From positions 124,001 to 188,000 of the forward strand of contig JAPKMP010000003.1 of the NCBI GenBank assembly GCA_026645935.1: DNA of 64,000 nt, written 5' to 3'. The notes beneath the pieces are model-generated. The model was not told where the DNA came from, searched no databases, and saw only the letters and a list, made by a program, of their open reading frames with translations. The stretch's first letter is position 1; every line of letters begins with the position of its first letter. The stretch comes from Candidatus Villigracilaceae bacterium (GTDB lineage: Bacteria > Chloroflexota > Anaerolineae > Anaerolineales > Villigracilaceae). Both the position numbers and the translations under genes were made by a program. Of the stretch, positions 11,194 through 49,542 are shown in pieces.

Positions 11194-12135
11194 ATGATAA
11201 ATAATTTTGCCGTGATCGGCGTCGGCGGTTACATTGCGCCCCGCCACTTGAAAGCAATAAGAGATACGGGTAATCGGCTTGTTGCGGCCGTGGACCCGAA
11301 AGATTCGGTCGGTATCCTCGATCAGTATTCCTACGATGTGAAGTTCTTTACCGAGATCGAGCGCTTTGATCGCCATCTGGAAAAACTTCGCCGCGGATTC
11401 GAAGCCGAACGCATCCATTATGTTTCGATCTGTTCGCCGAACTATTTGCATGATGCACACTGCCGCCTTGCCCTGCGTGTTGGCGCGGATGTGATTTGCG
11501 AAAAGCCTTTGGTGATCAACCCCTGGAATTTGGATGCCCTCGAAGAGATCGAAGCAGAGACGAAACACCGCATCTTTACGATCCTACAATTGCGTGTCCA
11601 CCCCAGCCTGATCAAACTCCGTGAGATGCTGCGATCCGCGAAGGATATCCACGATGTGGAACTTACCTACGTCACCAGCCGCGGTCCGTGGTATCAAGTT
11701 TCTTGGAAGGGTGACCACGATAAATCTGGCGGTGTGGCGACGAATATCGGGATTCACTTTTTCGACCTGCTGATGTGGTTGTTTGGGTCGGTAAATGGCA
11801 TCAAGGTCTATCACAAGGATGACGAGCGCATGTCCGGTTTTATCGAATTGGAGCGGGCGCGGGTAAGATGGTTCCTCTCGGTGGATAAGAACGACCTGCC
11901 CGAGCAGGCAAAGGCACATGGCAAGACCACGTATCGCTCGATCACAGTGGACGGGAAAGAAATCGAATTTTCCGAAGGTTTTACCGACCTGCATACGAAA
12001 GTTTACGAGGAGACACTCGCCAACCGCGGGTTTGGCATCAAGGAAGCCCGTCCCTCCGTGCAGTTGACGCATGATATCCGGCAAGCCCCACTCTCTCCCG
12101 TCGACACGCTGGCGCATCCGTTGCTGAGGAAATAA
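11194..12135 (+). CDS. wlbA: UDP-GlcNAc uronate 3-dehydrogenase, WlbA/WbpB-like (Gfo/Idh/MocA)
   Basis: A 313-residue Gfo/Idh/MocA oxidoreductase with a Rossmann motif ([11 protein letters not shown], 9-19), the catalytic E-K-P at 103-105, and [14 protein letters not shown] with His188. The sequence style ([19 protein letters not shown]) matches WlbA/WbpB, which oxidises C3 of UDP-GlcNAc uronate using NAD. The next two genes encode the matching N-acetyltransferase and aminotransferase, so the pathway assignment rests on both sequence and operon. AAAGGAG precedes the ATG. A UDP-GlcNAc 6-dehydrogenase (WbpA), which would supply the substrate, is not in the window. Confidence 0.88.
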
Positions 12136-12137
12136 AA

Positions 12138-12719
12138 ATGGGTGATTATTTTGTGCATGAATCCAGCTATGTCGACGAAGGCGCAGAAATCGGCGCCGGG
12201 ACGAAGATCTGGCATTTCTGTCACGTCATGCCGCGCGCGAAAATCGGTGAACGCTGCAACATCGGGCAGAATGTGCTTGTTTCTTCTGGTGTTACCATTG
12301 GGACGAACGTGAAGATTCAGAATAATGTTTCGCTTTATACCGGTGTGACCGTGGAAGATGATGTCTTCCTTGGGCCTTCGATGGTGTTTACGAATGTCAT
12401 CAATCCGCGCAGTCATGTCAGCCGCAAGGACGAGTACAAGACCACGCTGGTGAAGAAGGGCGCGTCCATCGGCGCAAATGCCACCATCGTGTGTGGGACG
12501 ACACTGGGACGCTTTTGTTTCGTCGGCGCGGGAGCAGTGGTGACAAAGGACGTACCCGACTACGCGCTGGTGTACGGTACCCCAGCCCGCATCCGGGGAT
12601 GGGTGTGTCAATGCGGTGAACAATTGAACTTCGAGGGCGAACGCGCCGTCTGCTCGAAGTGTGGAGACGCTTACAGGAAACAGGATCAGGTTGTGATGCC
12701 GGAAAGAGGCGTTAAATGA
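12138..12719 (+). CDS. wbpD: UDP-3-amino uronate N-acetyltransferase, WbpD-like (left-handed beta helix)
   Basis: A 193-residue acyltransferase made of hexapeptide repeats (about 10-150; for example [37 protein letters not shown]). The C-terminus has two Cys pairs (CQCGEQ and CSKCGD, about 157-178) that could bind zinc. WbpD acetylates the 3-amino group of the UDP-2-acetamido-3-amino uronate made by the dehydrogenase and aminotransferase encoded on either side. It lies 2 bases after wlbA and overlaps the aminotransferase by 4 bases. Paralogues acting on other amino sugars cannot be excluded, but the three-gene set makes this call strong. Confidence 0.87.
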
Positions 12720-22769: not shown

Positions 22770-23612
22770 ATGAAAGAAAACGAAAGGCTCCATGACAGGA
22801 TTGCCTTCAAGATTGTGAATTTATTTGGCGCCACCTTCAAAGCGCGCCTCATGGATAAGCTCCCGCTGTATCGTGAAGCATTCTTTTGCAAAGGCGTGTT
22901 TTGTTATATTTCTTCGATGATGGAATTAAGCCGAAGCGAGCGGTTATATTTGCCCGAAGTCCGCGCCTGGCTGGAAAGTTTTGCGCCTGGCGATGTTTTC
23001 TACGATATCGGCGCCAATATCGGCATGTTCAGCCTGACTGTTGCAAAGATCCACCGTGGACAGATCAAAGCGTATGCGTTCGAACCATCATTCTCGACCT
23101 TTGGCTCCTTCGTCCACAATGTGATCGGAAACGGGTTTGAAGATGTCATCATTCCTTTTTCCATTGCATTGGGTCGCGGGCAGGAATTGCTCGATTTCAA
23201 CTACACGGATATAACATCCGGCGCTTCCGTGCATACACTGGGCAGGTTGGTCAACCAGACCGGCGGAGAATTTACCCCCGCTTTCAAACAGCAGGTCATC
23301 AGTTATTCGCTGGATAACCTTGTGGATCAGTTCGATTTCCCCGTGCCAACCCACATAAAAATCGATGTGGACGGCGGTGAAACTGAAATTATTGAGGGTA
23401 TGCAAAAGACTTTAGCCAGGCCGGATGTAAAATCCGTGTTGGTCGAGGTAACTGAGGTTAGCAAGGACGATCCGTCGGTCAGGCAGATCATATCCAATTT
23501 CGAGATTGCCGGATTCAAGGAGGAACTGAGAATCCGCCATCCCGGTTACAAGAATTACCCCTTCGTCTTCGAAATCCTATTTACAAAGAACTGGAAATTT
23601 TCCCATGCTTAG
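22770..23612 (+). CDS. FkbM family methyltransferase, copy 3
   Basis: A 280-residue FkbM enzyme: YDIGANIGMFSLTVAK (about 75-90), AFEPSFSTF, and KIDVDGGETEIIEGM (about 190-204), where DG replaces the usual EG. It starts right after the preceding stop with GGGAG upstream and overlaps the neuB gene by 8 bases, so it may be translated with the nonulosonate operon. It could methylate the nonulosonate or the residue next to it; that is inference from position. Confidence 0.85.
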   Translation: MKENERLHDRIAFKIVNLFGATFKARLMDKLPLYREAFFCKGVFCYISSMMELSRSERLYLPEVRAWLESFAPGDVFYDIGANIGMFSLTVAKIHRGQIKAYAFEPSFSTFGSFVHNVIGNGFEDVIIPFSIALGRGQELLDFNYTDITSGASVHTLGRLVNQTGGEFTPAFKQQVISYSLDNLVDQFDFPVPTHIKIDVDGGETEIIEGMQKTLARPDVKSVLVEVTEVSKDDPSVRQIISNFEIAGFKEELRIRHPGYKNYPFVFEILFTKNWKFSHA

Positions 23613-24654
23613 AAATCTTGAAATTGACAGATATACCATCTCCGACGACAGCGACTGTTTCGTGATCGCTGAGATCGGCAACAACCACCAGGGCAACCTG
23701 CAAAAGGCGATGGACCTGTTCAAATCCGCCAAGGAGTGTGGAGTGGATGCGGTCAAATTGCAGAAGCGCGATAACAAGTCCCTGCTGACCAAAGCAGCGT
23801 ATGACAAACCGTATGATAATGAGAATAGCTTTGGCGCAACTTATGGCGAACACCGTGAGGCGCTGGAATTCGGTAAAAAAGAATATGTTGAACTAAAAAA
23901 ATATGCCGAGGAAATCGGTTTGACCATGTTCGCCACTGCCTTTGATATGAAAAGTGCAGACTTCCTTGCCGAGCTTGATATGCCGCTTTACAAGATTGCT
24001 TCAGGCGATTTGAAGAACACGCCGCTTCTCAAGCACGTTGCCAAAATCGGTAAGCCGATGATAATCAGCACCGGTGGTGGTTTAATGGAAGATGTTCAGC
24101 GTGCATATGACGCCATCATGCCAATCAACAAACAGTTGGCGATTCTGCAATGCACTGCATCGTATCCTGCTGAGCCACAGGATCTGAATTTGCGGGTTAT
24201 CACTACTTACCGCGAGAAGTTCCCGGATGTGGTTGTTGGTTTGTCCGACCATGAAAATGGAATTGCGATGGCGCTGGCAGCGTATGTACTTGGTTCACGT
24301 ATGGTGGAACAACACTTTACGCTCAATCACACCTGGAAGGGCACCGACCATGCTTTTTCCCTTGAACCAATTGGTATGAAGAAACTAGTTCGCGATTTGC
24401 GGCGGGTAAAGCTGGCAATGGGTGATGGTGAGAAACGCATTTATCCGAGTGAGGTTAACCCGATTCACAAGATGGGCAAGAAACTTGTTGCTGCGCGTGA
24501 TCTCAAAGCGGGTCAGGTTCTGACCCGTGACGACATTGCCATCAAATCGCCCAGCGACGGCATCCCGCCGTATGAGCTGGATAATGTCATTGGCAAGACT
24601 CTCACCAAAGACTTGCATGAAGACGATAATTTTGCGTTCGAGATTTTGAAGTGA
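23605..24654 (+). CDS. neuB: NeuB-family nonulosonate/ulosonate synthase, copy 1
   Basis: A 349-residue enzyme that condenses phosphoenolpyruvate with an aldose or hexosamine derivative to give a 3-deoxy-2-keto acid. FVIAEIGNNHQGNL (about 20-33), VKLQKR, YKIASGD, LQCTASYPA, GLSDHENG and the metal ligands of the barrel are present, and a C-terminal SAF (antifreeze-like) domain covers about 290-345. It is distinct from the second NeuB-family protein on the minus strand at 47669-48703. Its operon partners are an aldehyde dehydrogenase, a CMP-sugar synthetase and a transketolase, which is unusual. The aldose substrate is therefore uncertain: ManNAc, a bacillosamine-type sugar or a non-amino sugar are all possible. 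Confidence 0.9.
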   Translation: MLRNLEIDRYTISDDSDCFVIAEIGNNHQGNLQKAMDLFKSAKECGVDAVKLQKRDNKSLLTKAAYDKPYDNENSFGATYGEHREALEFGKKEYVELKKYAEEIGLTMFATAFDMKSADFLAELDMPLYKIASGDLKNTPLLKHVAKIGKPMIISTGGGLMEDVQRAYDAIMPINKQLAILQCTASYPAEPQDLNLRVITTYREKFPDVVVGLSDHENGIAMALAAYVLGSRMVEQHFTLNHTWKGTDHAFSLEPIGMKKLVRDLRRVKLAMGDGEKRIYPSEVNPIHKMGKKLVAARDLKAGQVLTRDDIAIKSPSDGIPPYELDNVIGKTLTKDLHEDDNFAFEILK

Positions 24655-24661
24655 TGACTGA

Positions 24662-24688
24662 GTAAGTCACGCTCAAAGCGTGACCTAC
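24662..24688. repeat. Palindromic repeat after neuB
   Basis: GTCACGCT and AGCGTGAC form a perfect 8-bp stem around CAA (24666-24684); GTA and TAC extend it beyond one mismatch. It begins 8 bases after the neuB stop. There is no T run, so I read it as a dispersed palindrome and not a normal terminator. Confidence 0.65.
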
Positions 24689-24708
24689 GGATTGTTTCAA
24701 AGGCACAT

Positions 24709-26169
24709 ATGCTTTCAAACCAAATCCCTAACTGGATCGGCACACAAGAACAGCCCACTCAAGCCAATGAGTGGTTCGAAAAACTCAACCCCGCGAACGG
24801 ACAGGTCCTCTTCAAAGTGGCGCGTTCCCGTTCAACGGATATTGTTCAAGCCATTGAAGCGGCAAAGAAAGTCCAACCTGCCTGGGCAGATACGCCTGCC
24901 GTACAGCGCGGCATGATTCTGCACAAGATCGTGGTGGGGATGCAGAACCGTCAGAGTGAGATCGCTGCCATTGTCGCCGCTGAAACTGGAAAGTCCATGA
25001 AAGAGGCGTTGGGCGAAACGGGCGGAGCGATCCAATGCGGATTGTTCTACGCTAGCGAAGGTCAACGTCTATATGGTCGCACTACCACGAGCGGCACGGC
25101 GAATAAATATGCGATGACCATTCGTCAGCCCATCGGTGTGGCGGGACTCATCATCGCTGCGAACACGCCGATCGCGAATGTGGCGTGGAAGGTTTTCCCG
25201 GCGCTCATCTGCGGCAATGCCGCCATTTTGAAAGCCGCCGAAGATACGCCAGCCACAGCGTGGATCTTTGGGCAGATCGCGAAAGAAGCGGGTTTGCCCG
25301 ATGGTGTCTTGAGCATCATGCAGGGATTTGGCGAAGAGGCGGGCGCGCCATTGGTTGCGCACAATGATGTCGGCGTGATCAGTTTCACCGGCTCAACCGA
25401 AGTGGGACGCATCATCAACCGTGTCGCAGGGGAACGCTTCGCGCGCATCTCGCTGGAATTGGGCGGGAAGAATCCGCTCGTGGTGTGTGACGACGCTGAC
25501 TTGGAGAACGCCGTCAAATGGGTGCTGCTCTCTGCCTTCAGTAATGCGGGACAGCGTTGCGCGTCAACCAGCCGCATTATCATTTTCGAATCAGTGTACG
25601 AAAAATTCCGTGATCTGCTCGTGGAAAAGACGAAGAAGTTGAAGATTGGCACGGCAGATGATTGTGATTTCGGCGCAGTTATCAATGAAGGGCAATTGCT
25701 CAATATGGTGGACGCCGTACAAAAAGCCAAAAAGAACGGCGCGACCATCCTTTGTGGCGGCGAGCGCATGACCGATGCCGAACACAAAGACGGTTACTAC
25801 ATGGCACCGACATTGATCGAGAATGTTGATCCGCACGATGAAATTTCAGAATGCGAGTTGTTTGGACCGGTAGCTTTATTGTTCAAAGTGAAGGATTTTG
25901 AACACGCGCTTCAAATGGCGAATGATACACCTTATGGTTTGACCGCCAGCATTCACACCAAAAGTATTCATCGTGCTACACGTTTCTATGACAAGGTTCA
26001 AACGGGTGTGGCAGTTGTCAATGCCGGGACTCATGGCTCTGAGCCCCATATGCCTTTTGGCGGACGTAAACTTTCGGGCAATGGTTCGCGTGAGCCGGGT
26101 ACCGAGGCGCTCAATATTTATTCTGAATTGAAAGATGTGTACATTAACATCGACCCGACGCAGGTATGA
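24709..26169 (+). CDS. Aldehyde dehydrogenase family protein in nonulosonate operon
   Basis: A 486-residue NAD(P)-dependent aldehyde dehydrogenase with all catalytic parts: the N of AANTP (about 153), K of ILKAAEDTP (about 177), FTGSTEVG, the general-base E of LELGGKNP (about 251) and the nucleophile C of NAGQRCAST (about 285). It oxidises an aldehyde to a carboxylate in the cytoplasm. Its place between neuB and neuA, with a 4-base overlap with neuA, ties it to sugar synthesis, not to general metabolism. It might make a uronic or aldaric acid, or act before the NeuB step on an aldose. No ALDH is part of the known NeuAc, Leg or Pse pathways. Confidence 0.9.
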   Translation: MLSNQIPNWIGTQEQPTQANEWFEKLNPANGQVLFKVARSRSTDIVQAIEAAKKVQPAWADTPAVQRGMILHKIVVGMQNRQSEIAAIVAAETGKSMKEALGETGGAIQCGLFYASEGQRLYGRTTTSGTANKYAMTIRQPIGVAGLIIAANTPIANVAWKVFPALICGNAAILKAAEDTPATAWIFGQIAKEAGLPDGVLSIMQGFGEEAGAPLVAHNDVGVISFTGSTEVGRIINRVAGERFARISLELGGKNPLVVCDDADLENAVKWVLLSAFSNAGQRCASTSRIIIFESVYEKFRDLLVEKTKKLKIGTADDCDFGAVINEGQLLNMVDAVQKAKKNGATILCGGERMTDAEHKDGYYMAPTLIENVDPHDEISECELFGPVALLFKVKDFEHALQMANDTPYGLTASIHTKSIHRATRFYDKVQTGVAVVNAGTHGSEPHMPFGGRKLSGNGSREPGTEALNIYSELKDVYINIDPTQV

Positions 26170-26915
26170 GCAAAAGTAATCCTTCGATCATCGCCTTGAT
26201 TCCCGCACGCGCCGGTTCGAAACGCGTGCAGGGAAAAAATATCCGCCCGTTGGTGGGGCATCCGTTGATTGCGTATACGATCTGCGCCGCGAAGCAAAGC
26301 GGAATTTTTGCGGATATTCTCGTCTCGACTGACTCAGAAGAGTATGCTGAAATTTCGCGACAATACGGCGCGGAAGTTCCTTTTCTTCGTCCTGCCGAAA
26401 TTGCAGGCGATTTAGCGCTCGATATCGAATGGTTGGACTTTACGCTTCACAAACTGAAAGAGATGGGACGCGAGTACGATTGCTTCAGCATCCTGCGCCC
26501 GACCAGTCCCTTCCGTTTGCCGAGCACCATTCAGCGTGCATGGAATGCGTTCAAAGCCGAAGAAGGCGTGGACTCGCTCCGCGCTGTGGAGAAGGTCAAG
26601 GAACACCCCGGTAAGATGTGGGTGATTCGCGGCAAACGCATGATGCCTTTGCTGCCATTTGGACCGAAGGAACAGCCATGGCACAGTACGCCCTATCAAG
26701 GCTTGCCTGAAGTCTATTCGCAGAATGCCAGCCTTGAAATTGCCTGGTCGCGTGTGGTCTTCAATGGACGAACTATCGCAGGTGAAGTGGTTATGCCGTT
26801 CATCTCGGAAGGCTATGAAGGTTTTGATGTCAATCATCCCTACGATTGGGATCTGGCAGAACGTCTCGTGGCAAGTGGAGAGGCGCAACTGCCAAAGGTA
26901 GAAAAAATTTCTTAG
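26166..26915 (+). CDS. neuA: CMP-nonulosonate synthetase (NeuA-like), copy 1
   Basis: A 249-residue nucleotidyltransferase with the CMP-sialate synthetase opening ALIPARAGSKRVQGKNIR (about 10-27), VSTDSEEYA, and RPTSPFR. It activates an ulosonic acid with CTP. It overlaps the ALDH gene by 4 bases (ATGA). A second CMP-synthetase gene lies on the minus strand at 49555-50271, matching the second NeuB, so the two sets probably handle different sugars. It lacks the extra domains seen in bifunctional NeuA proteins. Confidence 0.9.
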   Translation: MSKSNPSIIALIPARAGSKRVQGKNIRPLVGHPLIAYTICAAKQSGIFADILVSTDSEEYAEISRQYGAEVPFLRPAEIAGDLALDIEWLDFTLHKLKEMGREYDCFSILRPTSPFRLPSTIQRAWNAFKAEEGVDSLRAVEKVKEHPGKMWVIRGKRMMPLLPFGPKEQPWHSTPYQGLPEVYSQNASLEIAWSRVVFNGRTIAGEVVMPFISEGYEGFDVNHPYDWDLAERLVASGEAQLPKVEKIS

Positions 26916-26969
26916 AAAAGAATCAGGTGCGAGCGCGGGGTGAGGCACAGCGTCTATAAAGAGGAAAAC

Positions 26970-28946
26970 ATGGTCGAATTGAAATTGATCCCCGTGGAAG
27001 AATTCAAGCGCGTGCGCAACTCTTCTGCCGACAAATACAAGAAACTCCAACTCATCGCGGACATGTGCCGCGCCAACACACTCACCGAAGTGAAGCGCGC
27101 CGGGTCGGGTCATCTTGGCTCGAGCTTCAGCGCGATGGATATTGTGGTGTGGATGTATTACGAAGAGATGAACACGCTCAAGGTTGGTTTCGACAGCCCT
27201 GACCGCGATATTTATTTTTCGTCGAAGGGACATGATGTGCCGGGCTTGTATGCGGTTCTTCATTCGCTTGGCGAAATCCCCGATCATATGCTCATGTCGC
27301 TACGTCGCCTCAATGGATTAAACGGTCATCCTGACATCGGCAATCGCGGCATGGAAGCCAACTCGGGTTCGCTCGGCATGGGCATCTCGAAGGGACGCGG
27401 CATGGCGTGGGCGAAGAAGTACAACAACAATGGCGGACATGTCTTCGTGATGACCGGTGATGGTGAGTTGCAGGAAGGTCAGAATTACGAAGCCTTGCAT
27501 GTCACCGCGCATCACAAGGTGGATAACCTCACCGTCATCGTTGATGACAACAAAGTGCAATCTGATAAGCCTGTTGCCGAGATCATCGATCTTCGCAACC
27601 TTGTCGAAAAGTTCACCGCGTTCGGCTGGCATGTCATTCGCATCGATGGGCATGATTTTCGTTCCATCGAAAAGGCGCTTGCCGAAGCCAAGCAGGTCAA
27701 AGGCAAGCCGCAGATCATCATCGCTGATACCATCAAAGGTCGCGGCATTTCCTTCATGGAACATCCCGCCGCACTTGAAATTGGAAAAGGTCTCTATCCC
27801 TGGCATTCGGGCGCGCCGGATGATGCAGCCTTCGAAGCAGGTTTCTCTGAACTGATTCAGCGCATCAATGCGGACCTCGTAGCAGTGTCGCTCGACCCGT
27901 TGCATTTGACTCCCGTTGAGCCGGAAGCAAAGACCGCCACACCTTCCATGTTGGAAGGTGAACCTCTCAGCCAGGCGGCGTTGGATCGTTTATCCGTGAA
28001 GCCAACAGATGAATACGTATCGCGGGCGTATGGTCAAGCCTTGGTGGAACTTGCCGCCAAGCGCAAAGACATTGTTGTGCTCGACGCTGACCTCTCTTCT
28101 GATTGCAAAGTCCGCGATTTTGAAAATACCTATCCCGACCGTTTCATCGAAAACGGTATTGCCGAACAGGATATGGTCTCTATGGCGGCTGGTCTTGCCC
28201 GTCAGGGACTTTTACCTGTCGTCAACTCGTTTGCCAGTTTCCTTGCATCCCGCGCTAATGAGCAGATCTATAACGCGGCAGGGGAGAAGTCCAAAATTAT
28301 TTATGCCTTACATTATGCGGGTCTGATTCCCGCTGGTCCGGGCAAGTCACACCAATCCCTGCGCGATATTTCGCTCTTCTCCGCGTTGCCGAATTGCACC
28401 ATCCTGCAGCCTTGCAGCGCCGAAGAGACGCGCATGGCGATGGATTATGCCGTGAACAAAACCGATGACGTGGTTGCGCTGCGCCTCATCATCGGACCCA
28501 GTCCGCGCCGGATCGCGCTCCCGGCTGGGTATGAGTTCAAGGCTGGGGTGGGCTGTCAACTCACACCGGGGAAAGATGCGGTCATGTTCGCGTATGGACC
28601 GGTCATGCTGCACGAAGCGCTCCTCGCCAGCGAACTCCTCGCCGAGCGCGGATTTGGCTTGAGCATCGTCAACATGCCCTGGCTCAACCGCGTGGATGTG
28701 AAGTGGCTGGCTGAAGTCCTCAAGCCTTACTCAAATATCTTTATGCTCGAAGATCATCACCCCGCTGGCGGACTGATGGATAACATTCTCACCGTTTGTA
28801 GCGAACATGGCTTGTTGAATGGCAAGCAGATAATTAAGTTTGCTGTAGAAGGATATCCTGCTTGTGGTACGCCGCAACAGGCGTTGGTATTTCATGAAAT
28901 GGACGGGTTGTCCCTGTCCAAACGTGTGATAAAGTATTGTGGATAA
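26970..28946 (+). CDS. Transketolase, full length, in nonulosonate operon
   Basis: A 658-residue thiamine-diphosphate enzyme with N-terminal cofactor domain (GSGHLGSSFSA with His48; GDGELQEGQ at 163-171, then DDNK), central pyrimidine domain with the ENGIAEQD motif carrying the cofactor-activating Glu (about 410), and a C-terminal domain. AAAGAGG precedes the ATG at 26970; a GTG at 26940 is less likely. It moves a two-carbon ketol group between sugars. Motifs such as SSKGHDVPGLYAVL differ from housekeeping transketolase. Being co-linear with neuB, ALDH and neuA, it probably builds or trims the carbon chain of the aldose that NeuB uses, or makes a branched sugar. That role is inference. Confidence 0.88.
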   Translation: MVELKLIPVEEFKRVRNSSADKYKKLQLIADMCRANTLTEVKRAGSGHLGSSFSAMDIVVWMYYEEMNTLKVGFDSPDRDIYFSSKGHDVPGLYAVLHSLGEIPDHMLMSLRRLNGLNGHPDIGNRGMEANSGSLGMGISKGRGMAWAKKYNNNGGHVFVMTGDGELQEGQNYEALHVTAHHKVDNLTVIVDDNKVQSDKPVAEIIDLRNLVEKFTAFGWHVIRIDGHDFRSIEKALAEAKQVKGKPQIIIADTIKGRGISFMEHPAALEIGKGLYPWHSGAPDDAAFEAGFSELIQRINADLVAVSLDPLHLTPVEPEAKTATPSMLEGEPLSQAALDRLSVKPTDEYVSRAYGQALVELAAKRKDIVVLDADLSSDCKVRDFENTYPDRFIENGIAEQDMVSMAAGLARQGLLPVVNSFASFLASRANEQIYNAAGEKSKIIYALHYAGLIPAGPGKSHQSLRDISLFSALPNCTILQPCSAEETRMAMDYAVNKTDDVVALRLIIGPSPRRIALPAGYEFKAGVGCQLTPGKDAVMFAYGPVMLHEALLASELLAERGFGLSIVNMPWLNRVDVKWLAEVLKPYSNIFMLEDHHPAGGLMDNILTVCSEHGLLNGKQIIKFAVEGYPACGTPQQALVFHEMDGLSLSKRVIKYCG

Positions 28947-28948
28947 AA

Positions 28949-30355
28949 ATGAGTGAAATGAAAATTGCCATCCCGCTTCATGGGAAGATGTCGTCTCGTG
29001 TATTTCACCAGCCCCTATTTCGGGAGCGGTTGAAGTCCTCGGGTTTCGAGCCGTTTTTTTTCCTTAGCCCCCAATATTTCAGGGCTTTCGAGTTCGACCC
29101 TAATCGCTATTTTGAACTGAAGACAGGCGATTACGATGAGTATTTTAGCCAACATGCTTTTCTTCAACAACTCAGGTTATTAAGACGATTTGTGGTCGTC
29201 ACGGAGACGACGGATCTTCGGTTTCGAGAAACCGTGGAAGAGAAATTGTTTCATTCCAGAGCCTGGGGTGTGGCGGCTACCTTGATCTATATCGATGTGT
29301 TGCGGCGCATTCCGAAATTGGGATGGTTGCTGTCCGTCGTTGAAAGGAATTTATACGTTCCGAACGTCCATCGCCCGCAATTGAGAGAGATTGGCGTTGG
29401 ATGTGTCCTGACTCCCGGGATGGGATATTATGGCTTCTGGAACGAAGGCAACTTTGCTCTCGAGGCGAAAAGGTTGGGGTTGCCTGTGTTCTCCGCAGTA
29501 ACCAATTACGACGCCATCGTGAACAAAGGCTATCCGGGTTTTCTGCCATCCTGCCTCGCTGTGTGGAGCCGCCAAATGGCTGATGAGGCGATGAAGTTGT
29601 TTGGACTCCCGGCTCGAAAGATCGAGGTTACCGGGCCGATTCAGTATGACAGGTTTTTACTTCCATTACCAATGAGCCGGGAAATATTTCTCCGATCGAT
29701 CGGGCTGGATCCAAGACTCAAGACAATTTTCTTTGCAGGAGGCGTGAATGTAACCCGGTATTTCGAAATGTATAATTTTCTGGTGGAGAGGGCGGAAACT
29801 GTCAGGCGGAAGGAATTCAACGTTGTTATTCGTCCTTATCCGCACGCTAAATTGCTTGTCTCGCCAGGATGGAAGGTCCTGGAAAAATTATTTAGAGCGC
29901 AGGGAGTGTATATCTCCCATCCGGGTTCCATTGATGCGGAAGATCGCAGCAATGAGTATAAACAGGATTTATGGCTTGACGATAGTGTCGATGAATTGAG
30001 TTACCTTCTTCGATACAGCGACGTGATGGTAAATTATTTTTCCACGATCAGCCTGGAGGCCGCCATTTGCGATCTGCCTGTGATCCATCTTGGATACGAC
30101 GATTACTCATTCGGGCATCGCTATGGAATTACTTCAGAATTTCAACAGCGACAGACCCACAATCGCCGCAAATTGCGTCTTGCCGCCTCGAAAGTGGCGA
30201 GGAACGAGGGAGAATTGATCGCCTTTGTGGATCGCTATCTGTCGGATCGAACGCTGGATCGCGAACGGCGGCGTGAGTATGCCGTATCGGAATGCGGGGA
30301 ACTAGATGGAAATGCGGGTTCCCGCGTTGTGGAGATGATCCGGAGCCGCCTGTGA
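28949..30355 (+). CDS. GT-B fold transferase-like protein, family copy 3 (divergent)
   Basis: A 468-residue protein distantly homologous to those at 19759 and 21363: TNYDAIVNKGYPGF, LAVWSRQMADEAMKLFGLP, GPIQYDRF, VVIRPYPHAKL, and a NYFSTISLEAAICDLPVIHL segment that matches the INTT-LEAA-DKP region of the others. The ATG at 28949 overlaps the end of the transketolase gene by a few bodies' worth of sequence only (stop at 28944-28946, so it starts 3 bases after). An upstream TTG at 28937 is possible. Direct linkage to the nonulosonate operon hints that this family may use CMP-linked acidic sugars, which is only a hypothesis. Confidence 0.68.
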   Translation: MSEMKIAIPLHGKMSSRVFHQPLFRERLKSSGFEPFFFLSPQYFRAFEFDPNRYFELKTGDYDEYFSQHAFLQQLRLLRRFVVVTETTDLRFRETVEEKLFHSRAWGVAATLIYIDVLRRIPKLGWLLSVVERNLYVPNVHRPQLREIGVGCVLTPGMGYYGFWNEGNFALEAKRLGLPVFSAVTNYDAIVNKGYPGFLPSCLAVWSRQMADEAMKLFGLPARKIEVTGPIQYDRFLLPLPMSREIFLRSIGLDPRLKTIFFAGGVNVTRYFEMYNFLVERAETVRRKEFNVVIRPYPHAKLLVSPGWKVLEKLFRAQGVYISHPGSIDAEDRSNEYKQDLWLDDSVDELSYLLRYSDVMVNYFSTISLEAAICDLPVIHLGYDDYSFGHRYGITSEFQQRQTHNRRKLRLAASKVARNEGELIAFVDRYLSDRTLDRERRREYAVSECGELDGNAGSRVVEMIRSRL

Positions 30356-42105: not shown

Positions 42106-43992
42106 ATGTGTGGCATTACTGGATTTTGGAATCTGGATGGCAGACCGGTCAATCGTGAGGAATTGATCCGCTTTACGAATCAACTCGCGCATCGCGGACC
42201 CGACGGTTGGGACATTCACATCGAAGAATCTGCCAACCTCGGCTTTGGTCACCGCCGCCTCGCCATCATTGACTTGAACACCGGCGACCAGCCCATGTCT
42301 TACATGGACGAGCGCTATTGGATCGTTTTCAATGGCGAAATTTATAATTTTGTTGAATTACGCAAAGAGCTTGAATCACTTGGTTATTCATTTAAAACTG
42401 AATCAGATACAGAGATTGTTCTTGCAGCCTATGATAAATGGGGCGAAGATTTTCAGTTCAAACTCAATGGCATGTGGGCATGCGCGATTTGGGATAGCCG
42501 CGAGCGTAAGTTGTTCGTCTCGCGCGACCGCTTCGGCGTGAAGCCGATGATCTATCTCTTCGATGGCAAACGTTTTGCATTTGCATCCGAAATGAAAGCC
42601 TTTCTCGCACTCGGTAACTTCCGCGCAGAATACAACCCAACTGTGTTTGCCAACTCGCTTGAAGATGCAACACTTGTCGAAGGTGCGGAAGATTGTTTGT
42701 TTCAGGGACTCAAACGTTTGTTGGGCGGACATTGTCTCACGCTCAATGCCAATGGCGATATAAAGATTCGCCGCTGGTGGCACACACTTGATCATCTTCC
42801 CAACGTGCCAGAAAAATATGAAGACCAAGTAGCACAGTATCGTGAGTTGTTTCTTGATGCTTGCCGCATCCGTATGAGAAGTGATGTGCCAATTGGTACA
42901 GCATTAAGCGGCGGCTTGGATTCAAGCTCGGTTCTCTCTTCGATGAGTCACATTCGTAAATCTGGTGACGCCACCATGCGCATGGCGCACGAGTGGCAGA
43001 AGGCTTTCATTGGCACTTGGCCCGGCAAGGTTATTGATGAGCGTCATTATGCTGATGAGGTCATCAAGAAGACCGGCGTCAACCCGATTTACTGCGAAAT
43101 GAATGCGGATATGTACCTCGAACATTTCAACGAGATCCTTTATCAATTTGAAGAACTCTCCGACATTCATCTCGGTCCTTGGTTCGTTCACAAGATGCAA
43201 CGCCAGAACGGAGTGGTCGTTACCATCGACGGGCACGGCGGCGACGAAGCCCTCGGCGGCTACACCTGGCACGTCTTCGCTGCCATGCGCGACGCCAACC
43301 CGATGCGATATGCCGAACTCGCCTTGATCCGCAACAGCATGAGCTTGACTCATGGACTCGATACCTACATCAACGCCATCAAAAATCGCTTGACTGGAAA
43401 AAAATCCGCCTCAAACGGGACCTCATGGCTGGTCGCTCAACCCAAGCCTTTCTCTACACCTGCAATGGAGCAAGATGTCCCGCGCCTCACTGGGCGGGAT
43501 GAACTCTTCAAAACGCTTTACACTGATTTTCACTTTACCCATTTACCTATGAACCTGCGTGACTTCGACCGCCTCTCCATGGCGCATGGAGTCGAAGTCC
43601 GCTCGCCGTTCATGGACTGGCGTTTGATTACATTTGCATTTGCAATCCCATCTGCTCATAAAATTGGCGGCGGCTACACCAAACGAATTTTGCGCGATGC
43701 AATGAAAGGCATCCTGCCAGATTCCATCCGTACCCGCACCAAGAAAATGGGTTTCCCAAATCTCAACGAAGGTTGGGATTCTCCGCGTGGGCATCAGTTC
43801 ATCAAAGATGCCGTTGCTTCTGCTGATTTCAGATCAGCTTCTCTTTGGGATGGCAAGCGCGTGAACTCAGACTTGGAAATCGCCTTCCAAACCGATGACA
43901 AAACTCGCATCCACAAAGCGTGGCGGTTGGTGCAGGCTCAGTCCTTGCTAAATATGTTCCGCGAGAAGACAGAGAAAGTGAGCATGGCATGA
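42106..43992 (+). CDS. AsnB-like glutamine-dependent amidotransferase
   Basis: A 628-residue two-domain protein. Cys2 is the N-terminal nucleophile of the glutaminase domain (RGPDG, NGEIYN follow), and ALSGGLDSSSV (266-276) is the ATP-pyrophosphatase loop of the synthetase domain. Family members make asparagine, but in O-antigen loci such as those with WbpS they amidate uronic acids. The gene overlaps hisH by 4 bases and leads the hisH-hisF-wbpG set, so an amide on the diacetamido uronic acid or another acidic sugar is more likely than asparagine supply. Confidence 0.85.
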   Translation: MCGITGFWNLDGRPVNREELIRFTNQLAHRGPDGWDIHIEESANLGFGHRRLAIIDLNTGDQPMSYMDERYWIVFNGEIYNFVELRKELESLGYSFKTESDTEIVLAAYDKWGEDFQFKLNGMWACAIWDSRERKLFVSRDRFGVKPMIYLFDGKRFAFASEMKAFLALGNFRAEYNPTVFANSLEDATLVEGAEDCLFQGLKRLLGGHCLTLNANGDIKIRRWWHTLDHLPNVPEKYEDQVAQYRELFLDACRIRMRSDVPIGTALSGGLDSSSVLSSMSHIRKSGDATMRMAHEWQKAFIGTWPGKVIDERHYADEVIKKTGVNPIYCEMNADMYLEHFNEILYQFEELSDIHLGPWFVHKMQRQNGVVVTIDGHGGDEALGGYTWHVFAAMRDANPMRYAELALIRNSMSLTHGLDTYINAIKNRLTGKKSASNGTSWLVAQPKPFSTPAMEQDVPRLTGRDELFKTLYTDFHFTHLPMNLRDFDRLSMAHGVEVRSPFMDWRLITFAFAIPSAHKIGGGYTKRILRDAMKGILPDSIRTRTKKMGFPNLNEGWDSPRGHQFIKDAVASADFRSASLWDGKRVNSDLEIAFQTDDKTRIHKAWRLVQAQSLLNMFREKTEKVSMA

Positions 43993-44609
43993 TCGTCGTT
44001 GTAGATTATGGCGTCGGCAACCTCGGTTCCATCGTTAATATGTTCAAGAAGGTTGGCGCGAAAGCCGTCGCTTCGTCTGACCCGGCGGTGATCAAAGATG
44101 CTGAGAAGTTGATCCTGCCTGGCGTCGGCGCGTTCGATGCGGCGATGCGAAAATTCCACGAGACGGGTTTGGCTCCTGTAGTGGGTGAACTTGTGCTGGA
44201 GAAGAAAATTCCCGTCCTCGGTTTATGCGTGGGACTCCAACTTATGACCAAGGGCAGCGAAGAAGGACGCGAAGCAGGATTGGGCTGGTTCGATGCAGAG
44301 ACTATCCGCTTCAAATTTGATGGCGAAAATGCTCATCTCAAAGTCCCACATATGGGTTGGAATGAAGCACATGTGGTGCGTGACCATCCCCTGGTCGCAG
44401 ATTGGGACCCTGAGTCGCGCTTTTATTTTGTTCACTCGTATCATGTGGTGGCGAAGGAAACGGATGCGGTGCTGGCTGAAACAGATTACGGCGTGAACAT
44501 TCATTCCATTCTCGGCAGAGGCAACATCATGGGCACGCAATTCCACCCGGAGAAAAGCCATCGTTTTGGAATGCGCCTGCTCAAAAATTTTGCGGAGAAT
44601 ATTCGATGA
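43989..44609 (+). CDS. hisH: HisH-type glutaminase subunit (glycan amidotransferase)
   Basis: A 206-residue class I glutamine amidotransferase. The triad is complete: Cys80 (GLCVGLQLM), and H186/E188 (GTQFHPEKS). It hydrolyses glutamine to ammonia and passes it to a HisF-like barrel. It overlaps the AsnB-like gene (ATGA) and the HisF-like gene by 4 bases. Because the partner lacks a HisF catalytic residue and a WbpG-type gene follows, the ammonia is used to make an acetamidino group and not for histidine, as in P. aeruginosa HisH2. Confidence 0.9.
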   Translation: MIVVVDYGVGNLGSIVNMFKKVGAKAVASSDPAVIKDAEKLILPGVGAFDAAMRKFHETGLAPVVGELVLEKKIPVLGLCVGLQLMTKGSEEGREAGLGWFDAETIRFKFDGENAHLKVPHMGWNEAHVVRDHPLVADWDPESRFYFVHSYHVVAKETDAVLAETDYGVNIHSILGRGNIMGTQFHPEKSHRFGMRLLKNFAENIR

Positions 44610-45364
44610 TCCGTCCACGCGTCATTCCTGCTTTGTTATTAAGGGGACAAGGCTTGGTCAAGACGGTTAAGTTCAAGGAGCCGAAGTATCTTGGCGACCC
44701 AATCAACATGGTGCGCATTTTCAACGATAAAGAAGTGGATGAGCTCGTTCTGCTCGACATCACCGCCACACCCGAAAATCGCGGACCGCAATTCGACTTG
44801 TTGAAGAATATCACCAGCGAGGCGTTCATTCCGCTGGCATATGGCGGTGGAATCCGCTCGATGGACGATGTAAAAAAACTTCTCAGCATCGGCATCGAGA
44901 AGTTGATTATGAATACTTCAGCGGTGGAGAATGTTTCCCTAATCCGCGAAACCGCAGACCATGCAGGCAGTCAGGCAGTAGTTGCCTCCATTGACGTAAA
45001 GAAAAATTTCCTTGGCAAATACGAAGTCTTGACCCGCTGCGGGCAAAAGAAGACCGGGCTTGACCCCGTGAAGCATGCTGTTGAAATGGAACTGATGGGC
45101 GCGGGTGAGATCATTATCAACTCGATAGACCGCGACGGCACGATGCAGGGCTACGACGTCGAACTCGTCAGGCGGGTGGCGGATGTGGTTCAAGTACCAG
45201 TTGTCGCCTGCGGAGGAGCCGGGAATTTATCCCACGTTTCCGAAGTCATCAAGCAAGGTCACGCTTCTGCGGCGGCAGCTGGCAGTATCTTCGTCTTCCA
45301 AGGTCCACTCCGCGGTGTGCTGATCAGTTACCCCACGCCCAAAGAATTGAAGGAATTTATCTAA
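44606..45364 (+). CDS. HisF-like ammonia-channel subunit lacking the first catalytic Asp (HisF2/WbuZ type)
   Basis: A 252-residue TIM barrel clearly homologous to HisF, with GDP at the phosphate loops, INSIDRDGTMQGYD and VACGGAGN. In true HisF the N-terminal sequence is I-P-C-L-D with the catalytic Asp at 11; here it reads VIPALLLRGQG, with Leu at 11. The second Asp (ASID, about 130) is kept. The paralogue therefore should not do the cyclase reaction but can still carry ammonia to the amidotransferase encoded next. The KTVKFKEPKYLGDPINMVRIF stretch is typical of this branch. The downstream gene starts immediately. Confidence 0.9.
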   Translation: MIRPRVIPALLLRGQGLVKTVKFKEPKYLGDPINMVRIFNDKEVDELVLLDITATPENRGPQFDLLKNITSEAFIPLAYGGGIRSMDDVKKLLSIGIEKLIMNTSAVENVSLIRETADHAGSQAVVASIDVKKNFLGKYEVLTRCGQKKTGLDPVKHAVEMELMGAGEIIINSIDRDGTMQGYDVELVRRVADVVQVPVVACGGAGNLSHVSEVIKQGHASAAAAGSIFVFQGPLRGVLISYPTPKELKEFI

Positions 45365-46489
45365 ATGACCGAATATCGAATGTGCAAGCGCTGTGTGATG
45401 GACACCAGCGACCCAGAAATTACGTTTGATGAAAACGGCCTGTGTAATCATTGCCACACGTATGATCGTTTGGTACGTGAGCATATAGTGGATGGAGAGG
45501 CGGGACGCCAGCGGCTTGAGAAGTTGGTGACGGATATTAAGCGCGCGGGGCAGGGCAAACAATACGATTGTCTCATCGGCGTCAGCGGCGGCGTGGACAG
45601 CACCTATGTGGCATTTCTTGTGAAGAAACTTGGGTTGCGCCCGCTTGCGATTCATTTGGATAACGGCTGGGACTCGGAGCTTGCGGTTAAAAATATCGAA
45701 GAGACGCTCAAACGCTTGGAGATCGACCTGTATACCGAAGTCCTCGATTGGGAAGAATTTCGGGATATTCAATCTGCCTTTCTCATAGCCTCCACGCCTG
45801 ACTCTGAAATCCCCACAGACCACGCCATCGTTGCCGTCCTTGGCAATATGGCGGCGAAACTCGGGGTGAAATACATTCTCATTGGGAATAATGTGCGCAC
45901 AGAAACCCATCTTCCCAGCGCCTGGTCCGAAGGACATTTCGACTGGAAATATATTCGTGAACTGCACAAACGCTTCGGAACACGCCCGTTGAAGACCTTC
46001 CCACATTTTGGCTTTTTCACCTACTACATGCGCATGATCACCCAAAAGCGTATTGCGATCCTGGATTATGTCCACTACACTAAAAAAGAGGCGCTGCGCG
46101 TCTTGCAGGAAGAGCTTGGCTGGAAATACTATGGCGGCAAACATTACGAGTCGATATATACACGCTTTTACCAGGGGTACCTTCTTCCCGTGAAATTCGG
46201 CTACGACAAACGGCGCTGCCACCTTTCCAGCCTGATCTGCTCTGGTGAGAAGACTCGCGAGCAGGCATTGGAGGAATTAAAGATACCGGCATATTCGCCG
46301 TCCATGCAGGAGGAAGATCGTGAGTATGTTGCAAAAAAACTCGGTCTTACCGATGATGAATTCACTGCCATCATGAGTGCGCCGAAAAAGAGTTATTGGG
46401 ATTATCCATCCTACGGTCATTTCATGGAACAGCCGATGATCAAGAGCCTGGTGCCTGTTGTCAAGAAGGTGATGAAGCTTTTCAATTAA
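45365..46489 (+). CDS. wbpG: N-acetyl sugar amidotransferase (WbpG/WbuX/PseA type)
   Basis: A 374-residue amidotransferase with an N-terminal zinc-type Cys cluster (MCKRCVMD at about 6-13; GLCNHC about 26-31) and an ATP-pyrophosphatase loop GVSGGVDSTYV (about 72-82). It activates the acetamido group of a sugar and, with ammonia from the HisH-HisF pair, makes an acetamidino group. Targets known for the family are UDP-diacetamido-mannuronic acid, legionaminic acid and pseudaminic acid; this locus has candidate pathways for the first two. The next gene, on the other strand, ends only 7 bases away. Confidence 0.92.
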   Translation: MTEYRMCKRCVMDTSDPEITFDENGLCNHCHTYDRLVREHIVDGEAGRQRLEKLVTDIKRAGQGKQYDCLIGVSGGVDSTYVAFLVKKLGLRPLAIHLDNGWDSELAVKNIEETLKRLEIDLYTEVLDWEEFRDIQSAFLIASTPDSEIPTDHAIVAVLGNMAAKLGVKYILIGNNVRTETHLPSAWSEGHFDWKYIRELHKRFGTRPLKTFPHFGFFTYYMRMITQKRIAILDYVHYTKKEALRVLQEELGWKYYGGKHYESIYTRFYQGYLLPVKFGYDKRRCHLSSLICSGEKTREQALEELKIPAYSPSMQEEDREYVAKKLGLTDDEFTAIMSAPKKSYWDYPSYGHFMEQPMIKSLVPVVKKVMKLFN

Positions 46490-46496
46490 TCACGAA

Positions 46497-47660: not shown

Positions 47661-47668
47661 TTTGGTCC

Positions 47669-48703: not shown

Positions 48704-48720
48704 GCATTCCTCCGTTGAAT

Positions 48721-49542
48721 CTACCAAATTGTCCAGCCGCCATCCACGACCAGGTTATGTCCGTTGCAATAAGCGGAAGCGTCCGAAGCGAGGTACACAA
48801 TGGCGCCGCGCAGTTCTTCTTTTTTCTCCATTCGTCCCATCGGGTTCAGGTTGGAGAAACGCTCCACGAACAATTCGCTGTGATTATTGTACACACCACC
48901 CGGTGTAACGCAATTGGTGCGGATGCCCTTCTCGCCCCACAAGCCCGCCAAATAACGGGTCAATGCAATGACACCGGATTTGCTGACCGAATAAGCAACA
49001 GGCTGATTGATGCCAGTGCCAGGATACATTTTATGGTTTGGGCTGACCACTCCATACAACGAAGCGAAGTTGATGATGCTGCCCTTGCCTTGCTCCAACA
49101 TTTGCTTGCCGATCACCTGACAGCCCAGGAAGGAGCCGGTTAAATTGACGTCCAGGATCCGGTTCCAGTCTTCGAGCGGGAAATCTGGGAACGAAGCCGC
49201 GAAATTTGCCGAACGGGATTGGTTCGTGAATGCGGCATTGTTGATCAATACATCTACGCGCCCGAACTCGTTCATGACCTTTGCAAGCACGGTTTCCCAA
49301 TCTAAGGTTTTTGTCACATCGCAGGGTAGCGCCAGGCTGGGGTTTCCAGTTCGAGTAGTAAGAGACTTGGCGCGTTCCTGGATGATGTCAGTGGTTAGGT
49401 CTGTCATTACAACCGTGGCGCCGAAATCGCTTAAGGCGAGCGCATGTTGTTCGCCCAACAACCCGCCTGCGCCGGTAATAATGGCAACTTTTCCGTCCAA
49501 TCGAAAAAGATTGAGTGTGTCCAACTTTTGTGTTTCTTCCAT
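48721..49542 (-). CDS. SDR oxidoreductase, PtmA-like
   Basis: A 273-residue classical SDR: IITGAGGLLGEQHAL (21-35), NNAAFTNQ, the serine in INFASLYG, and Y-x3-K in YSVSKSGVIAL. PGGVYNN and DGGW complete the fold. In legionaminic acid clusters an SDR of this type (PtmA) is thought to work with a Gfo/Idh enzyme (PtmF) in making the amino-sugar precursor; both types are present here, at 48721 and 50268. The exact reaction cannot be read from sequence. It lies between the NeuB-like and the CMP-synthetase genes. Confidence 0.82.
   Translation of the reverse strand: MEETQKLDTLNLFRLDGKVAIITGAGGLLGEQHALALSDFGATVVMTDLTTDIIQERAKSLTTRTGNPSLALPCDVTKTLDWETVLAKVMNEFGRVDVLINNAAFTNQSRSANFAASFPDFPLEDWNRILDVNLTGSFLGCQVIGKQMLEQGKGSIINFASLYGVVSPNHKMYPGTGINQPVAYSVSKSGVIALTRYLAGLWGEKGIRTNCVTPGGVYNNHSELFVERFSNLNPMGRMEKKEELRGAIVYLASDASAYCNGHNLVVDGGWTIW

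Follow-up and report, generated by a model that had tools for sequence, protein, structure and literature searches.

The Kdn pathway of Bacteroides thetaiotaomicron comprises a Kdn-9-P synthase, a Kdn-9-P phosphatase and a CMP-Kdn synthetase, and we know of no SDR, transketolase (TK), aldehyde dehydrogenase (ALDH) or aminotransferase step in it. In the legionaminic and pseudaminic pathways, a diamino hexose is assembled by a dehydratase, an aminotransferase, an acetyltransferase and an epimerase or hydrolase, and the Kdo8N pathway employs the aminotransferase KdnA and the alcohol dehydrogenase KdnB. The Kdn pathway of B. thetaiotaomicron is referred to in excerpts of PMC10483923. For transketolases acting on acidic ketoses, the available text of PMC12016104 describes an E. 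coli TktA variant (R358I/H461S/R520Q) with 55.3% more activity on 5-ketogluconate, which it converts to tartaric semialdehyde; the same text says that a complete natural microbial pathway to tartaric acid is lacking. In sulfo-TK clusters, the TK-made aldehyde is oxidised in some cases and reduced in others (PMC9594981, in excerpt). Here we analyse an operon in a window of 64,000 nucleotides (the whole stretch of DNA studied), together with its relatives. As in the Kdn pathway, the operon set includes a NeuB-family synthase, a small C0-type HAD phosphatase and a cytidylyltransferase, but the HAD enzyme of one relative (locus L026) passes the TIGR01670 model (KdsC type) and falls under the NF058599 cut-off for Kdn-9-P phosphatase (102 of 180 bits).

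An ulosonate operon with a transketolase and an aldehyde dehydrogenase

The window operon consists of four intact genes on the + strand: neuB (23605..24654; NeuB-family ulosonate synthase of the NeuB1 type, 349 aa, Pfam NeuB and SAF), an ALDH gene (24709..26169; alpha-ketoglutaric-semialdehyde-dehydrogenase-like, 486 aa, Pfam Aldedh 1.1e-152), neuA (26166..26915; PseF/NeuA-like CMP-ulosonate cytidylyltransferase, 249 aa, Pfam CTP_transf_3) and a gene for a single-chain TK paralogue (26973..28946; 657 aa, Pfam Transketolase N, pyr and C). Open reading frames, Pfam matches and motif checks bear out the preliminary description of four co-directional genes with intact motifs, the middle two overlapping; the ALDH/neuA overlap spans 4 bases (ATGA). 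For the TK, the ATG at 26973 was preferred over the GTG at 26940 because homologues align from the ATG. The start of neuB is overlapped by an FkbM-family methyltransferase gene (22770..23612, + strand; Pfam PF05050, TIGR01444), which lies outside the conserved core. The TK gene of the window, like that of its near relatives, is followed by a gene for a BFO_1060-like or CDP-glycerol-transferase-like glycosyltransferase (28952..30355, + strand; cluster c6), a candidate transferase for the sugar.

The window NeuB matches PF03102 (3.3e-79) and has a SAF domain, scoring under the NeuB_NnaB and PseI equivalog cut-offs, and the window NeuA matches PF02348 and reaches 135 of 206 bits with the PseF model. 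At the position equivalent to Arg314 of N. meningitidis NeuB, whose role we take to bear on dependence on an N-acetyl sugar, NeuB1 sequences carry Ser in 34 of 37 cases (the window among them) and Arg in none of the 37; the human 9-phosphate synthase is likewise without Arg there. The operon shares its NeuB and NeuA families with the legionaminic and pseudaminic pathways, and a related SDR lies in the window's other nonulosonate locus, but the diamino-hexose steps fall outside the conserved core and NeuB1 has no Arg at the Arg314 position, unlike the second NeuB of the window (NeuB2).

The gene set recurs across phyla

The operon TK and its relatives (clade TKs) form a lineage apart from the paralogues of their own genomes, as do 35 of 37 operon ALDHs. 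The search for related loci used the best 80 of 154 relatives, and 86 clade-TK loci were considered; the count covers the 57 of them with at least 5 kb upstream and excludes the other 29. Ulosonate genes lie within 9.5 kb of the clade TK in 41 of these 57, by gene-naming thresholds of our own choice; the window and its near relatives account for 12 of the 41, so that independent cases are fewer. The full set of neuB, HAD phosphatase, SDR, ALDH, neuA and TK was found in 10 loci. Loci with the gene set are labelled Chloroflexota, Thermodesulfobacteriota, Myxococcota, Planctomycetota, Gemmatimonadota, Acidobacteriota, Methylomirabilota and Omnitrophota, together with two methanogens, and a curiosity confined to the window is ruled out by this recurrence. 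Neither the housekeeping grouping nor the unconserved gene order that the preliminary description had named as a contrary outcome was found, and its proposed tie of TK and ALDH to the ulosonate genes is supported.

The same description had kept as its null view that ALDH and TK are unrelated neighbours, which would fit the 16 of 57 loci in which the clade TK has no ulosonate genes nearby. However, in all six genomes examined from this group of 16, the ulosonate pathway is encoded elsewhere, and the gene set recurs across phyla. Moreover, within one set of 12 genomes, some of them picked for neuB-adjacent loci, neuB lies within 10 kb of 7 of 12 clade TKs and of 0 of 9 classical TKs. Given the separate TK clade and the recurrent gene set, we reject this view as highly improbable. 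That the ulosonate genes and a special TK would form a dedicated, recurrent pathway is well supported by these genomic comparisons.

The composition around this core varies. At locus L030, the neighbours of the TK are NeuA-, NeuB- (38%) and NeuC-like genes that belong to another type. Two clusters, c17 (epimerase/dehydratase) and c19 (DegT aminotransferase), are each found near five loci, the window included, mostly its near relatives, and both stand outside the shared core; across the shared core of the clade-TK loci, diamino-hexose dehydratase, aminotransferase and epimerase/hydrolase genes are not conserved partners. In Mantel tests run without eleven near copies, SDR distances track neither NeuB (r = 0.14) nor ALDH (r = 0.10), and the correlation between ALDH and TK is weak (r = 0.22).

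Two recurrent partners outside the window operon

Relatives of the operon carry two further recurrent genes, encoding a KdsC/Kdn-9-P-phosphatase-like HAD enzyme and an SDR. Both are missing from the window operon, with such genes present elsewhere in the same genome. These HAD and SDR partners were out of sight for the preliminary description, which was based on the window, and the ALDH is not obligatory (see below). For the operon SDR of locus L063, the best NCBIfam models are D-mannonate oxidoreductase and gluconate 5-dehydrogenase, both far below cut-offs; judged by sequence, the operon SDR appears to resemble aldonate C5-dehydrogenases. A gluconate 5-dehydrogenase-like SDR in the window's other nonulosonate locus (48721..49542, − strand; 41% to the L063 SDR) is one of two candidates for supplying the SDR step in trans.

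A NeuA–HAD fusion is encoded on contig C11 of the same genome as the window. All 11 window-type genomes have this marker, and so do all 16 tested relatives that lack a clade TK (two of the latter matches with in-frame stops and one split over contigs), and the same SDR type is also found in a TK-less nonulosonate locus with the marker. Recruitment of the contig C11 HAD and SDR for the operon is unsupported, because the marker occurs in TK-less relatives too, and these genes are therefore merely available.

The transketolase clade has changed its phosphosugar contacts

A housekeeping role for the operon TK was rejected, as its own genome has another TK, about 27–35% identical. Residues that we take to form the thiamine-diphosphate site of TK are retained in clade TKs (H26, H66, H100, D155, E160, N185, D381, F434, F437 and H473 in 83 of 83, and E411 in 82 of 83). 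For H261, an active-site His in classical TK, the count depends on how a variable stretch is aligned: it is retained in 1 of 83 or in 40 of 75 clade TKs. At the five positions presumed to contact the phosphosugar in classical TK, R358 is kept in 0 of 83 clade TKs, and all 83 have S385 replaced by Asp, H461 by Tyr, Phe or Leu, D469 by Pro and R520 by Ile or Ser. All five contacts are retained in the six readable classical TKs, a seventh (L127) being gapped at these positions. The active-site alignment took TKs with at least 600 aligned residues and excluded shorter pieces; one profile comparison was unreliable around S385 and R358, and the separate 83-TK alignment was used instead. Other alignments also show the phosphosugar contacts changed.

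These changes bear on where the TK would act. It had been proposed that the TK makes or reshapes the aldose before NeuB, with the ALDH oxidising the aldose end and NeuB building a diacid. Aldose phosphates are indeed normal TK products, but all five phosphosugar contacts are altered throughout the clade, a classical TK is already present alongside the clade TK in 9 of 12 genomes, and the KdsC-like phosphatase in the relatives' operon implies that the NeuB product is phosphorylated. Because of the lost contacts and the phosphatase, we consider action before NeuB unlikely; the TK more likely acts after NeuB.

End-group genes alternate between loci

Among the 41 clustered loci, an ALDH gene is present in 31, an aminotransferase gene in five and both in none; the corresponding figures for the 29 short-upstream loci are eight, three and none. 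In the sister operon, an aldehyde-type aminotransferase replaces the ALDH. Neither gene is found in 5 of the 41 clustered loci (L023, L025, L027, L049 and L119), which rejects the ALDH as an obligatory partner, nor in L020 and L118 (short upstream) or L036/L096. Searches of the genomes of four of these five loci, of L020 and of L036 found no ALDH above 41% identity, and the aldehyde would therefore need another fate there. Two loci have an ALDH from another lineage in the same slot. The motifs ELGG and GQRC (catalytic Glu and Cys) are present in 36 of 36 operon ALDHs. The best NCBIfam match was alpha-ketoglutaric-semialdehyde or 2,5-dioxovalerate dehydrogenase in 11 of 12 scanned ALDHs, far below cut-offs; for the window ALDH, the alpha-ketoglutaric-semialdehyde dehydrogenase equivalog is the best of all models but its cut-off is missed (431 of 770 bits).

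Some TK-like enzymes build branched sugars, and the clade TK could likewise add carbon: the SDR would create a ketone on the nonulosonate, the TK would add a C2 unit to give a branched or lengthened ulosonate, and the ALDH or aminotransferase would modify the added or terminal group. A ketone acceptor also fits the loss of phosphate contacts, and such a route suits loci with neither ALDH nor aminotransferase. Against it, ALDHs do not accept a branch ketone as substrate, yet most clustered loci have an ALDH, and the operon ALDH resembles omega-aldehyde dehydrogenases of 2-oxo acids. Furthermore, three of the changed TK positions are those whose mutation favours keto-aldonate cleavage in the available text of PMC12016104. 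We regard carbon addition as doubtful, if somewhat less so than remodelling before NeuB. A further reading is that TK and ALDH yield a small acid, such as a glycolyl group, that decorates the sugar. TK carries glycolaldehyde units, and glycolaldehyde is oxidisable by ALDH. However, no acyltransferase or CoA ligase is found among the 21 annotated clusters of the 22 open reading frame clusters recurring in at least five loci (the remaining one being about 150 aa), and the similarity of the ALDH to 2-oxo-acid semialdehyde dehydrogenases also speaks against this reading, which we judge improbable.

A proposed route to chain-shortened ulosonates

We favour, at slightly less than even confidence, a reading in which the operon leads to a CMP-activated, chain-shortened ulosonic acid. 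NeuB would join PEP to a hexose that carries a phosphate and probably no N-acetyl group. The Kdn-9-P-like product, a nonulosonate 9-phosphate, would lose its phosphate through the HAD enzyme. The SDR would then oxidise the penultimate hydroxyl at C8 to give CH2OH-CO-CHOH-, a transketolase donor; read from C9, the 8-keto product of a D-glycero-D-galacto nonulosonate would have the D-fructose configuration. The clade TK would remove C8–C9 as a glycolaldehyde unit to some acceptor, leaving a C7 aldehyde, which the ALDH would convert to 3-deoxy-hept-2-ulosaric acid or, in the sister operon, the aminotransferase to 7-amino-3,7-dideoxy-heptulosonate. NeuA would form the CMP-sugar for a surface polysaccharide. 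The proposal does not fix the order of the steps from the SDR onwards, and another locus would have to supply the HAD and SDR activities in the window lineage. With such a TK in the gene set, a plain C9 end product seems less likely, and the ulosaric acid suggested in the preliminary description is still the favoured product. More tentatively, we propose a widespread surface-sugar module, scattered horizontally among prokaryotes, in which a TK specialised for keto-ulosonates would shorten nonulosonates from C9 to C7 and the choice of gene would set the end group: an acid with ALDH (CMP-3-deoxy-hept-2-ulosaric acid), an amine with a GSA-type aminotransferase, and an aldehyde or alcohol with neither.

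Parts of this scheme have counterparts elsewhere. The Kdo8N pathway also oxidises and aminates the end of an ulosonate, but it removes no carbon and uses other enzyme families. In the tartaric acid route via 5-ketogluconate, a TK altered at three residues that are also changed in the clade TK cuts a keto-aldonate to an acid semialdehyde, which a semialdehyde dehydrogenase oxidises; that route differs in its six-carbon aldonate, its engineered TK and its lack of a NeuB or CMP step (PMC12016104, available text). The sulfo-TK pathway of sulfoquinovose breakdown (SqwGH) likewise has a TK acting on an unphosphorylated anionic ketose, but is catabolic, involves a sulfonate rather than a carboxylate, uses a glyceraldehyde-phosphate acceptor and has no NeuB or NeuA (PMC9594981, in excerpt). 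The predicted product has the carbon skeleton and oxidation pattern of Dha (3-deoxy-D-lyxo-heptulosaric acid) of plant rhamnogalacturonan II, for which enzymes and nucleotide form are listed as unknown in sections of PMC12168206. Dha itself was rejected as the product, since by Fischer projection a Kdn precursor would give the L-arabino rather than the D-lyxo configuration.

Significance

Within the partial texts reached by our literature searches, nothing ties transketolase to nonulosonates, co-mentions of these genes being separate, and no biosynthetic route to CMP-linked ulosaric acids appeared ('ulosaric' alone at the level of titles and opening lines); for the gene ptmA, these texts gave nothing beyond its frequency. 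If the proposal is right, the chemistry of transketolases, familiar from central metabolism and the breakdown of sulfosugars, would also serve anabolic sugar tailoring, providing a new way to acidic surface sugars and a route to CMP-linked ulosaric acids. It would also explain genes annotated merely as transketolase, glutamate-1-semialdehyde aminomutase or aldehyde dehydrogenase, and environmental prokaryotes would make a class of acidic sugar that nonulosonate surveys tuned to C9 may miss.

A four-gene operon that recurs with a separate transketolase lineage

The preliminary description of four co-directional genes is confirmed: neuB (23605-24654), an aldehyde dehydrogenase gene (ALDH; 24709-26169), neuA (26166-26915) and a transketolase gene (TK; 26973-28946) all lie on the + strand, embedded in a long surface-polysaccharide region on contig C33 of the genome (4.33 Mb). 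On one side they are joined by an FkbM methyltransferase gene that overlaps the neuB start, and on the other by a BFO_1060-like glycosyltransferase gene, which follows TK. A search based on TK gave 80 loci (the best 80 of 154 relatives), and ORF clustering together with tblastn served to chart the genes around them; judged by the closest of these matches (97% in TK), the genome of the window is that of an Anaerolineales-type Chloroflexota. With the window and loci added later, 86 loci carry this TK lineage (clade TK, as distinct from the ordinary, classical TK), and for 57 of them 5 kb or more of upstream sequence is available.

Ulosonate genes lie within 9.5 kb of clade TK, midpoint to midpoint, in 41 of these 57 loci. 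The complete six (neuB, HAD phosphatase, SDR, ALDH, neuA and TK) are close together in 10 loci, including two from methanogens (L080, and L061 with a rearranged order), and the plain insert-free order is not present in all 10; L075 and L116 are two examples of a complete locus; the set lacking HAD and SDR accounts for 12 loci, namely the window and its near relatives. Of the 41 clustered loci, 31 have ALDH as the end-group gene and 5 have a class III aminotransferase; the two never occur together, and the remaining 5 loci have neither. Likewise, the 29 loci with short upstream sequence contain ALDH in 8 cases, the aminotransferase in 3 and both in none. Same-strand neighbours are frequently separated by at most 250 bp (ALDH-neuA, 32/35 pairs; SDR-ALDH, 20/23; neuB-HAD, 16/18; neuA-TK, 31/44; HAD-SDR, 18/31). 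Taken over one set of 12 genomes, TK lies within 10 kb of neuB for 7 of 12 clade TKs and for 0 of 9 classical TKs; these genomes were picked for holding clade TK loci, some known to adjoin neuB, so only the contrast between clade and classical TK counts. Clade TK is scarce in the phylum of the window (9 of 400 genomes, its own counted), a patchy distribution that suggests horizontal transfer. We consider it very probable that the operon constitutes a dedicated pathway.

Clade transketolases have altered sugar-binding positions

Residues were counted in an alignment of 83 clade and 7 classical TKs at positions that we take to be cofactor-binding or sugar-binding; among solved structures, human transketolase and the split Carboxydothermus transketolase come nearest in sequence. 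H26, H66, H100, D155, E160, N185, D381, F434, F437 and H473 are kept in all 83 clade TKs, and E411 in 82 (the exception is L119). By contrast, R358 is Arg in none of the 83, and in every one S385 is replaced by Asp, H461 by Tyr, Phe or Leu, D469 by Pro and R520 by Ile or Ser, whereas six of the seven classical TKs keep all five residues and the seventh (L127) is gapped there. An alternative alignment places Cys or Leu at H461 and Ala at D469, and alignment with the human and split enzymes gives Tyr and Pro; no alternative brings back the five changed residues. The count for H261, which in classical TK also belongs to the active site, depends on the alignment (conserved in 1/83 clade TKs in the main one, in 40/75 in the alternative one) and carries no weight here. 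The Ignavibacteria TKs carry the same changes as the other clade TKs.

Classical TK is also present in 9 of the 12 genomes (415-503 bits against PF00456), and the matches in G009 and G010 are short and of the N-chain type. In the assembled sequence of G007, the methanogen (archaeal) MAG that contains L061, clade TK is the only PF00456 match, so that it has no classical TK beside it there. Loci of the same kind (L116, 9294-11222; L117, 9646-11574; L119, 9461-11410) also house a second TK group, further removed from the window TK (43-46%); its motif reads GSLAGLIPGGPGHSHQ in L116 and GSLAGLLPGGPGHSHQ in L117.

In an engineering study, the R358I/H461S/R520Q variant of TktA reportedly raised activity on 5-keto-D-gluconate by 55.3%, cleaving it to tartaric semialdehyde, for which oxidation to tartaric acid by a semialdehyde dehydrogenase was proposed (PMC12016104). 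The three engineered sites are among the five positions changed naturally in clade TK. In the sulfo-TK pathway, an unphosphorylated sulfo-ketose is cut by TK; Clostridia reduce the aldehyde formed at the end, and other clusters have a dehydrogenase instead (PMC9594981). An end-group enzyme that can be exchanged therefore has a precedent.

Partner enzymes suggest a phosphorylated ulosonate and aldehyde chemistry

The HAD of locus L026 passes the KdsC-type model TIGR01670 (121.5 against a cut-off of 107) but, at 102, falls short of the 180 set for Kdn-9-P phosphatase. Given the KdsC-type match, the NeuB product is probably a phosphorylated ulosonate, of whatever chain length. The residue corresponding to Arg314 of N. 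meningitidis NeuB is Ser in 34/37 NeuB proteins of the operon type and Arg in 0/37, and it is Arg in the second NeuB of the window (NeuB2); because this Arg is missing, the operon substrate is read as something other than free N-acetylhexosamine, with Kdn not singled out.

For one operon SDR (L063), the best models, matched far under curated cut-offs, are those of D-mannonate oxidoreductase and gluconate 5-dehydrogenase, enzymes whose target in a hexonate is the penultimate hydroxyl. Similarly, 11 of 12 ALDHs scanned best match, again far under the cut-offs, alpha-ketoglutaric-semialdehyde or 2,5-dioxovalerate dehydrogenase, enzymes for omega-aldehydes of 2-oxo acids; the ALDH of L021, a locus whose carrier seems to be the cultured strain NaphS2, matched none of the models under the strict threshold applied. 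In a quick tree with long branches, 35 of 37 operon ALDHs are separate from five own-genome paralogues, and those of L067 and L083 cluster with four of the five, so the ALDH slot seems to have been filled on two occasions. The aminotransferase best matches the glutamate-1-semialdehyde (GSA) aminomutase type in all three scanned, and its relatives of solved structure include aminoglycoside C-6' aminotransferases; both likenesses would again imply that an aldehyde is the substrate. Among the matches listed for 16 genomes that lie outside the group with this aminotransferase, the best full-length one to it reached 38%.

Clade transketolases at a distance from ulosonate genes

The 16 of 57 loci without ulosonate genes nearby comprise 14 in the Ignavibacteria-type TK clade plus L036 and L069. 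We inspected the rest of the genome for six of them, and the remainder of a pathway was present at a distance in all six. Four Ignavibacteria (L094, L095, L097, L098) have an SpsF-aminotransferase-SDR-HAD-NeuB' operon elsewhere; the L036 genome has neuB-SDR-neuA at L096, with a HAD gene 1.4 kb away and no ALDH above 37% identity; and the L069 genome has neuB-HAD-SDR-ALDH-neuA at a separate locus, L122.

In Bacteroidales and Kapabacteria (L034, L053, L055, L060, L079), TK lies within the aminotransferase operon. This SpsF-aminotransferase operon, with an aminotransferase of the GSA type, spans these two groups and the four Ignavibacteria, and clade TK either is one of its genes or lies elsewhere in the same genome; its HAD was not detected in L060 and L079. 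It may represent a separate amino-ulosonate pathway. At L030 (450-5295), a clade TK at the contig start adjoins genes of another type that resemble NeuA, NeuB (38%) and NeuC, in a genome with neither the operon-type ALDH nor the operon-type aminotransferase.

Two further nonulosonate loci in the same genome

The window-lineage operons lack HAD and SDR. Contig C11 of the same genome carries a third nonulosonate locus (L093, 6053-11703) with NeuB' (C terminus not SAF-length), a 423-aa NeuA-HAD fusion, an SDR, a sulfotransferase-looking gene and a Capsule_synth-like gene, and a further SDR lies at 48721-49542 of the window. The fusion occurs in 11/11 window-type genomes but also in 16/16 relatives without clade TK; it would indicate only that HAD and SDR activities are at hand where the operon lost them. 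The second nonulosonate locus (window 42106-51251), whose layout we take to be legionaminic-like, has asparagine-synthase-like, glutamine-amidotransferase (HisH-like) and HisF-like genes on the + strand and UDP-GlcNAc 2-epimerase-like, NeuB2, SDR, NeuA-like and Gfo/Idh oxidoreductase genes on the - strand.

A candidate route to a shortened nonulosonate

One line of steps would accommodate an SDR that acts on a penultimate hydroxyl, a TK without phosphosugar recognition and an ALDH for omega-aldehydes of 2-oxo acids. The SDR would oxidize the penultimate hydroxyl of a nonulosonate to give an 8-keto-nonulosonate, clade TK would remove a two-carbon unit to leave a C7 aldehyde, and the ALDH would convert this to a C7 diacid. 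In Fischer projection from the C9 end, an 8-keto D-glycero-D-galacto nonulosonate would be configured like D-fructose (C3 left, C4 right, C5 right), as TK donors normally are. From Kdn, the diacid would be 3-deoxy-L-arabino-hept-2-ulosaric acid and would differ from plant Dha, which is D-lyxo. For a start from Kdn, the calculated neutral masses would be 268.08 for Kdn, 266.06 for the 8-keto form, 206.04 for the C7 aldehyde, 222.04 for the heptulosaric acid, 527.08 for its CMP ester and 207.07 for the 7-amino product.

Several observations count against a CMP-activated nonulosonate shortened by two carbons, with TK and then ALDH or aminotransferase setting the end group. No end-group gene accompanies the five clustered loci L023, L025, L027, L049 and L119, nor L020, L118 and L036/L096; no ALDH above 41% was found in the four genomes searched of those five (all but L119). 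The operon SDR type is also found without TK. Separately, the ALDH-less locus L118 has a NUDIX-looking gene (11947-12477) between SDR and neuA. Mantel comparisons of gene distances were strong for NeuB-ALDH (r 0.86; 20 loci), moderate for NeuB-TK (r 0.43; 25 loci) and weak for ALDH-TK (r 0.22, equalled or exceeded in 87/999 permutations), and distances did not agree for SDR-NeuB (r 0.14) or SDR-ALDH (r 0.10). The weak ALDH-TK and absent SDR agreement suggests that TK and SDR have been swapped between loci. That TK takes two carbons off is tentative, a little short of an even chance, and a heptulosaric acid as the product is somewhat less likely again.

A literature search, with subscription journals mostly outside its reach, found nothing linking transketolase with nonulosonate, neuB, pseudaminic, legionaminic, Kdn or cytidylyltransferase. 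The papers surveyed on 'ulosaric' largely concern plant pectin, and one account gives the biosynthetic enzymes and nucleotide form of Dha as unknown (PMC12168206). We rate the operon as a new form of nonulosonate biosynthesis.
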